From: Dialister hominis
GTDB taxonomy: Bacteria > Bacillota > Negativicutes > Veillonellales > Dialisteraceae
Reading direction: 5' to 3'
Assembly: GCF_007164725.1 (NCBI RefSeq)
Contig: NZ_AP019697.1
Location: 2,132,501-2,196,500, forward strand
Length of the DNA stretch: 64,000 nt
Within the stretch, counting starts at the first letter, position 1; every line of letters begins with the position of its first letter. The position numbers and the translations under genes were made by a program. This document shows positions 52,513-58,310 of the stretch, piece after piece. The notes under the pieces were generated by a model. It worked only from the letters and a program-made list of their open reading frames with translations, made no database searches and had not been told where the DNA came from.

Positions 52513-52770
52513 GGCAGCTCCTTAATAAATATGACTAATAATATAAGATAGTAGTAGCAGGCGTAGTAGTACGCTGTGAATAAGTGAATAACTTTGTGAC
52601 TATCTAGATTTTATCGATTTTGAGCCTTTGTGAAAACCCGGTGAATAACTTTTTTTCTTCTTCACACATTTCACAGATTTCCGGGGGTCTGGATTTATCC
52701 ACAGTTTATGCACTGTTTTTTACCCTCTGCGGCCCGTGTTTCTTCACAATACTTTATATAGAGGCAGCTC
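52513..52770. other. dnaA-dnaN intergenic part of oriC
   Basis: 258 bp of AT-rich DNA with DnaA boxes: a perfect TTATCCACA at 52695-52703 and several TTATTCAC-like sites (minus strand, near 52580-52660). The plus strand also has a TTCACACATTTCACAG pair. It fits one half of a bipartite origin. Confidence 0.75.
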
Positions 52771-54411
52771 TTACCTTTTCAGCTGCTTGGTAAGTTCATC
52801 GATGACGGCCTTCGTGCTCTGATCGCGTTTGATTTCCTTTTCCACGCGTTCGCAGGCATAGACGACTGTCGTGTGATCCTTTCTTTTGAACTTGTCACGG
52901 AGTGCCGGGAAAGAAATGCCCGGGATCAGGTTTCTGGCCAGGTACATGGAAATCTGTCTTGGAACGACATATTTTTTCGGACGCGCATTGCTGAGGACCT
53001 GTTCCTTCGTCACGCCGTAGCGGTCGCAGACTTTGTCGATGATGATATCGACCGTCAGCGTATTGCCGCCGTCGAGCGGGATCTTGTCTTTCAGTGCTTC
53101 CATGGCAAAAGGCAGTGTGATCGGCTTCTCTTTGATGCGGGCTATCATGACCAGGCTGTTGAAAGCGCCTTCCAGCTCACGGACATTCGTATTGATGTGG
53201 CTTGCAATGTAATCGACGACTTCATCCGGCAGATTGATACCCTGCTTTTCAGCGCGGTTCTTCAGGATGATGCTGCAGATTTCATAGTCAGGCGGGGAAA
53301 TCGGAGCGACAAGGCCGCTCGAGAAACGGCTCTGCAGGCGGTCTTCGAGCTTTTCAATATCCGATGGCGTACGGTCGCTCGTCATGATGATGTTCTTCTT
53401 CTTGTCGAAGAGCTCATTGAACGTGTTGAAGATTTCCATCTTCGTCGAGTCCCTCGAGCCGAAGAACTGGACATCGTCGATCAGAAGGAAGTCCGGATTT
53501 CTGTACTTCTGGCGGAAGTCATTCGTCGCATGGCGCTGGATGGCATCGATCAGCTCATTCGTGAACGTTTCACTGGACACGAAAAGAACGGAAAGCTCCG
53601 GCTTGTATTCATGGATGTAATTGCAGATCGCATGCAGAAGATGCGTCTTGCCAAGGCCGGATGGGCCGTAAATGAAGAGCGGATTCATATTTGTATCCGT
53701 CAGCTTTGGATTGACCGCAGCCTGTGCGACGGCCAGGGCCGCCGAATACGCTACGTCATTGCACCCGCCGTGGACGAATGTCTCGAACGTGTACTCCTCA
53801 TTGATGGGATTTGACTGGAAAACCTTCGCTTTTTTCGCTTCCGGCTTCTTCGGTTCTTCGAAAAGGGAGCCCTGAGCGACATCCTGGATGCTCGGAAGAG
53901 CGACCTCGTCGGCCGACTTCGGCTTCAGATTTGTGAAATCCGGAGGCGCTGCTTCTTCCGGGAACGGATCGGCTGCCTTGCTTTCCATCACGGGAGCAGG
54001 CTCATTCCCTTCCGGAAATGGCGAAGGGATGCCCCCTTCGGGGAACGGTGCCGGAGAAGGAGCAGGCGGGACAACATTGCGGGCCTTTTCCCTTTCCATA
54101 TCCTTGGCAGAAGCATGGGCGGAAACGGGACCCGGGCCGTCATTCGGCGTTATTTTTGGAGGACGGTAGTTATCTACTTGTATTGTGATCTGCTGATTCT
54201 TCGTTTTAAGAATGTAACTCTCCAGTTTTCTGGAATACACATTGGCCAGCCATGCGACCTGGTACTTCGGCAGTGTGTGGTCCGTGGAAATTGTCAGTAC
54301 CGAGCCTGAAAGTGAGACAGGGTACAAGTGGAGTTCAAACATTTCTGAATACTCGGAATCATTCGACTTAATATAAGTAACTAAATCCTCCCAGAGTGAA
54401 AATAGATCCAT
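52771..54411 (-). CDS. dnaA: Chromosomal replication initiator DnaA
   Basis: A 546-residue initiator, longer than the usual 450. Domain I is residues 1-85. Domain II (85-200) is unusually long, with three PFPEG/PFPEE repeats and many Pro and Ala. The AAA+ domain has Walker A GPSGLGKTHLLH at 249 and Walker B FLLIDDVQFF. Domain IV has the DNA-binding signature RKDHTTVVYACERVEKE. It forms the oriC-bound filament. Upstream spacer DNA also carries DnaA boxes, so autoregulation is likely. Confidence 0.98.
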   Translation of the reverse strand: MDLFSLWEDLVTYIKSNDSEYSEMFELHLYPVSLSGSVLTISTDHTLPKYQVAWLANVYSRKLESYILKTKNQQITIQVDNYRPPKITPNDGPGPVSAHASAKDMEREKARNVVPPAPSPAPFPEGGIPSPFPEGNEPAPVMESKAADPFPEEAAPPDFTNLKPKSADEVALPSIQDVAQGSLFEEPKKPEAKKAKVFQSNPINEEYTFETFVHGGCNDVAYSAALAVAQAAVNPKLTDTNMNPLFIYGPSGLGKTHLLHAICNYIHEYKPELSVLFVSSETFTNELIDAIQRHATNDFRQKYRNPDFLLIDDVQFFGSRDSTKMEIFNTFNELFDKKKNIIMTSDRTPSDIEKLEDRLQSRFSSGLVAPISPPDYEICSIILKNRAEKQGINLPDEVVDYIASHINTNVRELEGAFNSLVMIARIKEKPITLPFAMEALKDKIPLDGGNTLTVDIIIDKVCDRYGVTKEQVLSNARPKKYVVPRQISMYLARNLIPGISFPALRDKFKRKDHTTVVYACERVEKEIKRDQSTKAVIDELTKQLKR

Positions 54412-54725: not shown

Positions 54726-54729
54726 AAAT

Positions 54730-54758
54730 TTACAAAGCAGTAAGAAAGCTGTTATACT
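54730..54758 (+). promoter_or_regulatory. Promoter for 76-aa gene and exonuclease-RNase H
   Basis: TTACAA, 17 nt, TATACT on the plus strand, 69 bp before the first gene. Confidence 0.6.
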
Positions 54759-54826: not shown

Positions 54827-55057
54827 ATGAAACGTCCACAGAAAGTCACCCGGGAAGACAGGCTGAGCCAGTACGCCCGCAAGATGTACGAAAAAGAAAA
54901 AATCGGGAAACAATGGGAAGAAGAACTCCCGGAAGACAAGAAAAAGAACGGAAAGAAAATCAGGACCATCCTGAACCGCCGCCTCCGTCATGACAAAAAC
55001 CTTGAAGTACCCGCTAACGGCGGCGCTTACAGGAAGGAAGCGGAGTGGAGAGAATAA
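54827..55057 (+). CDS. Small basic hypothetical protein, 76 aa
   Basis: Not recognised. It is very rich in Lys, Arg and Glu (RLSQYARKMYEKEKIGKQWE, KKKNGKKIRTILNRRLRHD), predicted helical, with no signal. CGAAAGGAAAGAAGTC before the ATG is an acceptable ribosome-binding site. It lies 22 bp before the exonuclease-RNase H gene in the same unit. A small nucleic-acid-binding protein is possible; it is not ribosomal protein L34. Confidence 0.65.
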   Translation: MKRPQKVTREDRLSQYARKMYEKEKIGKQWEEELPEDKKKNGKKIRTILNRRLRHDKNLEVPANGGAYRKEAEWRE

Positions 55058-55079: not shown

Positions 55080-56441
55080 ATGGATAAAGACAGAATACTC
55101 GCACTGGACACGGAAACCACCGGAGTCGGCCCCAATGCCGAGATCCTGCAGCTCTCCGTCATTGACGGCGAAGGCGCTGTGCGGATGAATCAATATTTCC
55201 GTCCGAAGAAAAACTCGTCATGGCCCGAAGCCGAGAAAGTGAACCACATCTCCCCTGCCATGGTCAGCAAATGTCCCTTCATCCTCGACCATAAGGAAGA
55301 AATCCAGGAAATGCTCGGCAATGCAGAGACCATCGTCGGATACAACCTTCCCTTCGACGTGCAGATGCTCCTCCAGAGCGGCCTTACCCTGCCCGATCCA
55401 AAGAAAACCATCTACATCGACATCATGCCCCCCTTCTCCGAAAAATACGGCGAACGCGATCCCTTCACAGGAAACATCCGCTGGCAGAAACTCATCACGT
55501 GCGCCAAACACTACGGCTACGACGGAGAAGGCTGGCACGACAGCCTCGCCGACACGAAAGCGACCATCTACTGCTTCTGGAAAATGATCGAAGACGGGAC
55601 CCTGAAGCTCGATAAAAAAGCAGAAGAAAGAAGCGTGAAAATAGCCTTGGGCAATACAAGACAGAAAAAGAAATACTACGTCGTCAAACGCGGCAGGAAC
55701 CCCGGCGTCTACTACACCTGGGACGACTGCAAGAAAGAAGTCCAGGGCTTCAACGGCGCCGTTTACAAAAGCTTCGTCATCAAGGAAGATGCCGAAGCAT
55801 GGTACGGAAAACCCGTCAAAGAAGCACCGAAAATTGTAAAACCCGCCGGCACGGCTGCTTCTGCCGGAGCACCCGCTGCGGCGAAATCCTCGGCAAAAGG
55901 AGCCAAGGACATCGCAGAAGCAGAAAAGACATTCCCGGCCAAAGCCAAGAAACTCGGACCAGCCTTGAAAGCCGGCTTCAGAGTCCCTGATACCCTCACC
56001 ATCTACACCGACGGCTCCTGCCTCTCCAACCCGGACGGCCCCGGAGGCTTCGCTGCCGTATTCCTCACAGAAGAAGGAGAAGCCTTCCTCCACCTGACCG
56101 GCGGCGAACCAGGCACCACCAACAACAGAATGGAACTCCGCGCTGCCTACGAAGCCCTCAAATGGATCAGCCAGGACGGCAAGAGAAGACAAATCACCTT
56201 CTGCACCGACAGCAAGTACCTCCAGAGAGCCATCACCCAGAGATGGCTGAACAACTGGAAAAGAAACGGCTGGATCACAACCAAAGGCACCCCCGTCCTG
56301 AACCAGGACCTCTGGAAAGGAATAGACGCCTTCCTCACCTCCCACGCCCTTTCCTTCGAATGGACAAAAGGCCACGCCGGCGCACAGTACAACGAACTCT
56401 GCGACCAGCTCGCCAAAGCCGAAGCCTCCCGCTTCCAGTAG
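55080..56441 (+). CDS. DnaQ-like exonuclease fused to RNase H1
   Basis: A 453-residue three-part protein. (1) Residues 1-175: DEDDh 3'-5' exonuclease with LALDTETTG (Asp10, Glu12), VGYNLPFDVQML (Asp93) and HDSLADTKAT (His153, Asp158). (2) Residues 198-243: the RNase H1 hybrid-binding domain, YVVKRGRNPGVYYTWDDCKK. (3) Residues 305-450: RNase H1 with TDGSC (Asp311), NNRMELRA (Glu352), CTDSKY (Asp377), KGHAG and CDQLA (Asp442). All catalytic residues of both nucleases are kept. An Ala/Lys linker joins them. AAGGAGG precedes the ATG; the frame is open upstream but lacks a site. Likely roles are removal of RNA-DNA hybrids and trimming of 3' ends. Confidence 0.93.
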   Translation: MDKDRILALDTETTGVGPNAEILQLSVIDGEGAVRMNQYFRPKKNSSWPEAEKVNHISPAMVSKCPFILDHKEEIQEMLGNAETIVGYNLPFDVQMLLQSGLTLPDPKKTIYIDIMPPFSEKYGERDPFTGNIRWQKLITCAKHYGYDGEGWHDSLADTKATIYCFWKMIEDGTLKLDKKAEERSVKIALGNTRQKKKYYVVKRGRNPGVYYTWDDCKKEVQGFNGAVYKSFVIKEDAEAWYGKPVKEAPKIVKPAGTAASAGAPAAAKSSAKGAKDIAEAEKTFPAKAKKLGPALKAGFRVPDTLTIYTDGSCLSNPDGPGGFAAVFLTEEGEAFLHLTGGEPGTTNNRMELRAAYEALKWISQDGKRRQITFCTDSKYLQRAITQRWLNNWKRNGWITTKGTPVLNQDLWKGIDAFLTSHALSFEWTKGHAGAQYNELCDQLAKAEASRFQ

Positions 56442-56499: not shown

Positions 56500-58310
56500 G
56501 GGGATGTGACAAAATTCATCCCAACAAAAAGGGCTCTGCCCCGGATCATTTGGTCCGGGGCAGAGCCTTTCGTGTTATAATTTTTTACAATGAAAAATAA
56601 CAACACTAGCAATCATTTTACCGCAGAACAAGGCATTTTGCCAATGTTTCCCTCTGAGATTCTCAATGTCGATGATCCTGTTTTAATGTATGACAGATTT
56701 ATGGAGGAAATCGATCTTAAAAAGTACCTTCGTTACATACCGACGCGTGGCGCTGGCAGACCCAGGTATAATCCCGTCAACATGCTGAAAACGATCATCT
56801 ATGGTTTCGCAGAAGAAGGATATTGCTCTTTTAGAAAACTTGAAGATAATTGCAGGGTTAATATCAGATATATGTACCTGATGAATTATGAAGCCCCATC
56901 CTATCGGACATTCTGTCATTTCGTGAAGGGCTTTCTTAAGTATTCTCTCAAGGATATCTTTTATTCAATTACGAAAGAACTCTGCGGCAAACTCAACGTG
57001 GATTTGCAGCATATATATATTGACGGTTCCAAGTTTGAAGCGAACGCAAATAAATACAGCTGGGTATGGAAGAAATCCGCTGAAAAATCCCGCTACAAGC
57101 TTTTTGCCAAGATTACCAGCCTTTTTGAGTTACTCAATGATGATCTTAAGTATGACCATATGAGTGTAAACATCAATACAGAATACGCTCCGGACTATCT
57201 GCGTCTGGTATTGGATAAATTAAAAGAAATCTGGCAGATTGATGAGACGGCCTTTGTTCATGGAAGCGGGCATCGCAAGTCCGATCATCAACGCAAGTAT
57301 GAGCAGCTTAAGGCATATACATCAAAACTTGAAGAATATGTTGAGAAGATACAGATATGCGGTACTTCCAGAAACAGTTATTCGAAGACCGATACGGATG
57401 CAACATTCATGCGAATCAAGTCGGACTACATGGGAAATGATCAGCTTCTGCCTGCATACAATGTCCAAATAGGTGTTGCCGATGAATTTATTGCCGTAAT
57501 TGATGTTAACCAGTATCGTTCAGATATGGATTGCTTCGTACCGCTGATGGAGGAATTCCACGAAGTCTATGGGGCTTATCCTAAGTATCCTGTGGCAGAT
57601 GCAGGATATGGATCTTTCAACAATTACATCTATTGCGAGCAGCACGGTATGGAAAAGTATATGAAATTCCCCATGTACAAGAAAGAAACGAAAGACAAGA
57701 AATACCATACCAATCCGTTTCGGCCAATAAACTTTAGAGTTGATGAGAATGGAACCATCCGTTGTCCAAATGACAGGGCTTTCAAATTTATCTATAGACA
57801 TCTGGTCAGAGGGAACTTATACGGCAGGCAGGAGGAAGTATTTGAATGCGAAGACTGCCAAGGATGCCCGCTGGCAGAGCAATGTAAAAAGACCCCGAAG
57901 AACAAAAGAATCTCATTGAGCAGAGAACGGAATAACATGTACCAGGAGGTTCAGGATAATCTGGAAAGCATCCATGGAGCCCTGCTAAGAATGAACCGGT
58001 CAATCCAGGCTGAAGGAACTTTTGGAATCATGAAACATGACAGATGGTACAAAAGAATCGTCAGAAAAGGGATAGATTCTGTAAAAGCCGAGTTATACCT
58101 GGTAGCACTTGGCTATAATTTAAGGAAATACATCACAAAAATAATGCGTATAAGGATTGCCGCCTAAGACAATATAATTAAAAGTCTTATGGGGGTAAGG
58201 GGGCTTACGCGCATTTTTACGTAAAAGGCTTACAGCAGAGCTAAAAATGATGAAATAAAGACGCAAAAAAGAGGCTGCAACAAAATGATTAACCATTTTG
58301 TCACAGCCCC
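56500..58310 (+). mobile_element. IS1182-family element, copy 3 (1811 bp)
   Basis: Same ends and length as copies 1 and 2. The flanks are AAAAAAATTT on the left and TTTTTTGATG on the right. It lies 58 bp after the exonuclease-RNase H stop and marks the start of an AT-rich patch. In opposite orientation to copy 2, with oriC between. Confidence 0.93.
56590..58167 (+). CDS. IS1182-family DDE transposase, copy 3
   Basis: 525 residues, the same protein as copy 2; intact DDE residues and zinc cluster. TGTTATAAT (extended -10) ends 8 nt before the ATG, with the terminator-like hairpin just upstream in place of a -35. Confidence 0.95.
   Translation: MKNNNTSNHFTAEQGILPMFPSEILNVDDPVLMYDRFMEEIDLKKYLRYIPTRGAGRPRYNPVNMLKTIIYGFAEEGYCSFRKLEDNCRVNIRYMYLMNYEAPSYRTFCHFVKGFLKYSLKDIFYSITKELCGKLNVDLQHIYIDGSKFEANANKYSWVWKKSAEKSRYKLFAKITSLFELLNDDLKYDHMSVNINTEYAPDYLRLVLDKLKEIWQIDETAFVHGSGHRKSDHQRKYEQLKAYTSKLEEYVEKIQICGTSRNSYSKTDTDATFMRIKSDYMGNDQLLPAYNVQIGVADEFIAVIDVNQYRSDMDCFVPLMEEFHEVYGAYPKYPVADAGYGSFNNYIYCEQHGMEKYMKFPMYKKETKDKKYHTNPFRPINFRVDENGTIRCPNDRAFKFIYRHLVRGNLYGRQEEVFECEDCQGCPLAEQCKKTPKNKRISLSRERNNMYQEVQDNLESIHGALLRMNRSIQAEGTFGIMKHDRWYKRIVRKGIDSVKAELYLVALGYNLRKYITKIMRIRIAA

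Follow-up and report, generated by a model that had tools for sequence, protein, structure and literature searches.

Does P0001, an open reading frame (ORF) that starts about 0.7 kb from dnaA in Dialister hominis, encode one protein with two nucleases, and if so, what would the joining of the two accomplish? The ORF occupies positions 55080-56441 (+ strand) of the window, by which we mean the whole 64,000-nucleotide stretch of DNA that was analysed, and it is a single uninterrupted reading frame of 453 codons with no internal stop. The initial annotation had described its product as a DEDDh exonuclease, a hybrid-binding domain (HBD), and an RNase H1 in one chain, and it had suggested that such a protein could clear primers or R-loops at the replication origin.

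Predicted domains and active sites

The N-terminal part of P0001 (residues 1-177; 55080..55610, + strand) was assigned to the DEDDh 3'-5' exonucleases on the basis of a Pfam match, conserved residues, and profile matches. Specifically, RNase_T (PF00929) matched residues 8-166 with 48.1 bits (E 2.5e-12; cut-off 24), the catalytic residues of motifs ExoI-III (D10, E12, D93, H153, and D158) were all present, and these five DEDDh residues did not vary among 14 aligned exonuclease homologues. The closest profile matches among solved structures included the PolC exonuclease, ISG20, ExoX, and DnaQ epsilon; ISG20 acts on RNA, and the other three are DNA enzymes. Identity as DNA polymerase III epsilon (DnaQ) proper was rejected because the protein scored below both curated epsilon cut-offs (22.3 bits versus 222.7 for TIGR01406, and 26.5 versus 71.5 for TIGR00573). 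Two more DEDDh proteins were encoded in the same genome (L205:1462-2355 and L211:1405-2388), and inspection by eye suggested a C-terminal BRCT-like domain in them.

The HBD (Pfam Cauli_VI) was placed at residues 198-241 (55671..55802, + strand) by a match of 67 bits (E 1.7e-18; cut-off 21), and this segment also matched the human RNase H1 HBD structures 3bsu and 1qhk. An Ala/Lys-rich linker (residues 242-304; 55803..55991, + strand), which was variable in an alignment with the sister proteins, leads from the HBD to a predicted type 1 RNase H domain (residues 305-449; 55992..56426, + strand). The latter domain was identified via Pfam, structure matches, and a structure model. RNase_H (PF00075) matched residues 305-449 with 128.9 bits (E 2e-37; cut-off 25.8), E. 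coli RNase HI structures were matched with E values of about 1e-37 to 1e-31, and the catalytic residues D311, E352, D377, and D442 were present, as was the loop histidine H432 in a KGHAG loop. An HBD ahead of the RNase H domain is a feature of the RNase H1 subtype, and P0001 has this arrangement. The score against the NCBI equivalog for ribonuclease HI (NF001236) was 157.2 bits, narrowly under a cut-off of 160 that is a naming threshold and not a mechanistic feature.

All three Pfam matches exceeded their curated cut-offs and were far beyond chance. In a structure model built with 27 sequences (mean pLDDT 68.8, pTM 0.47), only the RNase H domain was confident, with pLDDT values mostly >90, and confidence was low over the first part of the linker between the HBD and the RNase H domain. 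Thus, the open 453-codon frame and the three Pfam matches bore out the three-part chain proposed in the initial annotation. The catalytic residues of both nucleases were likewise found at the positions it had given, with H432 in addition.

Two tandem genes in sister species

In three sister species of the same genus (G003, G004, and G005), the exonuclease and the HBD-RNase HI were encoded by separate tandem ORFs in the same order, with 53-56% identity to the fusion for the exonuclease and 58-61% for the HBD-RNase HI. These loci resemble P0001 in the two proteins (53-61% identity overall), their order, and the small gene ahead of the pair, which was present in 3/3 sisters. They differ in having two ORFs with separate starts and stops; a stop and then a start with its own Shine-Dalgarno (SD) sequence lie between the two coding regions.

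The small gene in the window (54827..55057, + strand) lies between dnaA and the fusion, is the first gene of the conserved block, and encodes a basic protein of 76 amino acids that had no match in Pfam or NCBIfam. In G003, G004, and G005, clear homologues (MKRPxKVTxETRxxQYARKMYGK...) immediately precede the exonuclease gene, and adjacency of the small gene and the exonuclease gene was kept across four species of the genus. A consensus scan placed a candidate operon promoter, TTTACA-18-TATACT with an extended -10 element, upstream of the small gene at 54729..54758 (+ strand). This site matched 10/12 consensus positions; five such sites were seen in the region compared to 2.0 expected from shuffled sequences.

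Because the sister species keep two tandem genes behind the same small gene, sequence comparison indicates that the fusion ORF is a join, specific to this lineage, of two adjacent operon genes. Outside the genus, the two genes were unlinked wherever both were listed. In the same family, G008 carries the exonuclease gene on a different contig from its distant HBD-RNase H gene. The two genes lie at 0.18 and 1.54 Mb in G013, and G018 has both on one contig, at 80 and 982 kb; across the class, their positions were unrelated.

The junction

The fusion protein reads EDGTLKL, then DKKAEERS, and then continues from the old RNase H start position; the exonucleases of the sister species stop at the equivalent place (EDGTLRI* in G003 and EDGTVIL* in G005). 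Frame analysis indicated that the former intergenic region is now an 8-residue linker, DKKAEERS (55611..55634, + strand). It is followed by a GTG codon (55635..55637, + strand) that marks the old RNase H start and falls precisely opposite the ATG at which the separate RNase H genes of G003 and G005 begin. The alignment around this start, MKIALGNTRQKKKYY against MIRKNFKTSAKKKYY, ran residue for residue, and KLDKKAEERSVK is a stretch within residues 170-200, which span the junction. There are stops in both other frames at the junction (TAA at 55613 and TGA at 55636), and an A6 tract begins at 55614. Because of these stops, one indel, real or technical, separates the fused state from the two-gene state.

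The exonuclease start at 55080 is preceded by a very strong SD sequence, AAGGAGGA (-10.7 kcal/mol). At the old RNase H start, the corresponding value was -1.7 kcal/mol, compared to -3.5 to -5.7 kcal/mol in the sister species. An RNase H start without its own SD sequence, combined with the strong SD sequence of the exonuclease gene, fits RNase H translation that now relies on the upstream start.

A gene for an IS1182-family transposase (56590-58167) is part of an element at 56500-58310, about 60 bases past the fusion stop codon. The 16-nt inverted repeats of the element (56500-56515 and 58295-58310) are outside the fusion gene. As the repeats confine the element to about 56500-58310, which is past the stop codon, this IS1182 copy was ruled out as the cause of the fusion.

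Distribution of the fusion and related architectures

Searches of 380 genomes of the class and a 398-genome sample of the phylum found the full-length fusion only here. Under the E-value limits used, no second genome in either set yielded a match that covered both the exonuclease and the HBD; fusions that have diverged strongly would escape the phylum search, which was a sampled one. The fusion was thus seen in one genome, the single genome of the species that was examined. A whole-protein scan of the species genomes returned RNase HI matches only, besides one apparent match to residues 5-445 in L028, which proved to come from an RNase H gene adjacent to a dnaQ-type gene and not from a fusion. 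Two longer frames for the exonuclease were also discarded: the one in G346 (331 amino acids) looks like an over-extended start, and the one in G166 (316 amino acids) had no second Pfam domain.

In phage and plasmid collections, no place covered 80% of the query, and the one viral contig that the whole-protein query matched was matched in the RNase H domain only. IMG/VR contained 11 relatives of the exonuclease; nine of them (L230-L238) were checked, and none had a convincing HBD alongside. The relatives on viral contigs L230-L239 were 29-43% identical to the exonuclease, and several had segments that resembled membrane helices by eye. An RnhA-DnaQ or viroplasmin-exonuclease fusion was also sought in the literature, with no relevant result. 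All three parts of the predicted protein are known, but their order (exonuclease, HBD, and RNase H) was not seen in the literature searched and was found in one species among the 380 genomes of the class.

Several proteins share part of this architecture. The Acinetobacter RnhA-DnaQ protein (CAKLQH020000022.1, 459 amino acids) also has RNase_H and RNase_T in one chain, but the RNase H domain is first, there is no HBD, and the exonuclease scores 115 bits to RNase_T. Given the reversed domain order and the HBD of P0001, we rejected an RnhA-DnaQ identity for the fusion protein. The contig that carries the Acinetobacter gene (L091) is filed as an Acinetobacter phage; the RNase H-DnaQ gene is next to mltD, and this part of the record looks like host chromosome. 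An RnhA-DnaQ annotation is known from Acinetobacter chromosomes.

HBD-RNase HI proteins and eukaryotic RNase H1 have the same order of HBD, linker, and RNase H domain, and residues 197-450 of P0001 align with structure 6vrd, but these proteins have no exonuclease in front. A protein of G025 (289 amino acids, L224:7288-8157) shares the HBD and the exonuclease family with P0001. In this case, however, the HBD (Cauli_VI, 42.5 bits) is N-terminal, directly ahead of the exonuclease, and there is no RNase H domain; such an HBD-exonuclease fusion was found in G025 only (1/380 class genomes). In the draft genome G234, a 446-amino-acid ORF (L229:1526-2866) combines an RNase_H domain with a SpoU-type rRNA methylase behind it, apparently a further RNase HI fusion of the class. 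The RNase HI-CobC proteins of Actinobacteria (SCO2299, Rv2228c, and MSMEG_4305) have RNase HI in a bifunctional chain, as here, but the partner is a C-terminal acid phosphatase/CobC domain (PMC7466739). Bacillus subtilis DinG has a DEDD exonuclease that is reported to act on hybrid RNA (PMC12525004); it differs from P0001 in having a helicase partner and no RNase H domain.

The neighbourhood of the replication origin

The gene dnaA (52771-54411, - strand) was identified via a Pfam match, and it is followed on the same strand by dnaN, a small S4-like gene, and recF, in that order, which were named by sequence and gene order. The gap between dnaA and dnaN contains a perfect DnaA box (52695), and near-matches lie at 52575 and 54559. 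With dnaA and these boxes close by, the description of the fusion as lying beside oriC was reasonable. That placement stands with one correction, namely, that the small conserved gene at 54827-55057 precedes the fusion and belongs, by position, to the same operon.

Alternative explanations

An assembly error that joined two genes had been raised in the initial annotation, and it was a real possibility because the sister species have two genes. An indel from sequencing or assembly would mean that the genes are still separate in the cell, either overlapping as GTGA or with the exonuclease ending at TAA 55613. A single-base change would restore two genes, as the stops in the other frames and the A6 tract make plain, and with GTGA at the overlap, an RNase H gene that lacks an SD sequence could still be translated by coupling. 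The fusion was also unique in the sets searched and seen once, in the only genome of its species. However, when 400 kb of G000, the genome that carries P0001, was compared to 1.2 Mb of G005, none of the 36 orthologue pairs (about 37 kb) had a convincing frameshift. The only G005 query that was split was a 141-amino-acid ORF of doubtful coding status, and in the reverse direction, P0001 was the sole split ORF of G000. The genome is one contig with an estimated completeness of 99.97%, and the sister species retain the SD sequence that the RNase H start of P0001 lacks. The loss of the SD sequence, the clean orthologue pairs, and the single, nearly complete contig lean toward a real fusion, and we consider a technical indel unlikely.

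If the fusion is real, its domains could still work independently, with a tether that has no special function and an exonuclease that acts on DNA 3' ends or on oligonucleotides. In most of the class, the exonuclease and RNase H genes are not linked, and DNA proofreading and repair enzymes are among the best profile matches of the exonuclease. Independent action of the domains is also reported for the RNase HI-CobC protein of mycobacteria, and RNase HI-acid phosphatase proteins were reported to have functionally separable domains (PMC7466739). Against this, four species of the genus share the operon that includes HBD-RNase HI, and G025 separately has an HBD fused to an exonuclease of this family; we regard independent domains as doubtful, though they deserve somewhat more weight than an indel. 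Far less probable is a dedicated machine that clears primers or R-loops at oriC, which was the role first suggested for this locus. In G000, G003, and G005, the block and dnaA are arranged head-to-head, but in G004 the block is beyond recF, about 6.7 kb from dnaA, and in the rest of the class both genes are elsewhere. Moreover, a sole RNase HI would serve the entire chromosome. Position alone gave an origin-specific role no support.

Discussion

Our preferred reading, to which we assign a probability of roughly 0.5, is that P0001 is a real and recent fusion of tandem operon genes (small protein, DEDDh exonuclease, and HBD-RNase HI) that yields a hybrid-clearing nuclease. The architecture, the intact active sites, the two-gene state of the sister species, and the loss of the RNase H start signal are features of the sequences themselves. 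The stop codon of the exonuclease gene would have been lost, probably via a small indel, to give the fused ORF. In the RNase H1 arrangement, hybrid binding falls to the HBD and RNA cleavage to the catalytic domain. In P0001, the HBD would hold an RNA:DNA hybrid and RNase HI would cut its RNA strand internally. RNase H cuts leave 3'-OH ends, which are potential substrates for a DEDDh enzyme. The tethered DEDDh domain may remove nucleotides from the new RNA 3' ends, and possibly from nearby DNA 3' ends too.

The activity of the protein, the substrate of its exonuclease, and a benefit of the tether are what we infer from these features. The HBD-exonuclease protein of G025 provides independent support for a link between this exonuclease family and RNA:DNA hybrids. 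In addition, B. subtilis DinG, whose domains include a DEDD exonuclease, is reported to degrade the RNA strand of hybrids and to clear R-loops from the genome (PMC12525004). With these two examples, the joint action on hybrids suggested in the initial annotation is plausible, and its restriction to the origin is the part that did not hold. More tentative, at a little under even odds, is a single-polypeptide machine with endo- and exonuclease activities, in which one HBD serves two nucleases and the cuts made by RNase HI are extended by the tethered 3'-5' exonuclease.

Family searches of the genome returned P0001 as the only RNase HI match, besides one RNase HII match. As the only RNase HI detected, P0001 is probably a housekeeping enzyme, and the fusion probably does general housekeeping on R-loops and primer remnants.

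In functional terms, the fusion suggests that RNase HI and this little-studied DEDDh exonuclease family of the class are partners. The fused and two-gene states within one genus are a natural control for the value of the tether. The fusion raises the further possibility that RNase HI cutting is more widely accompanied by DEDDh enzymes that trim 3' ends.
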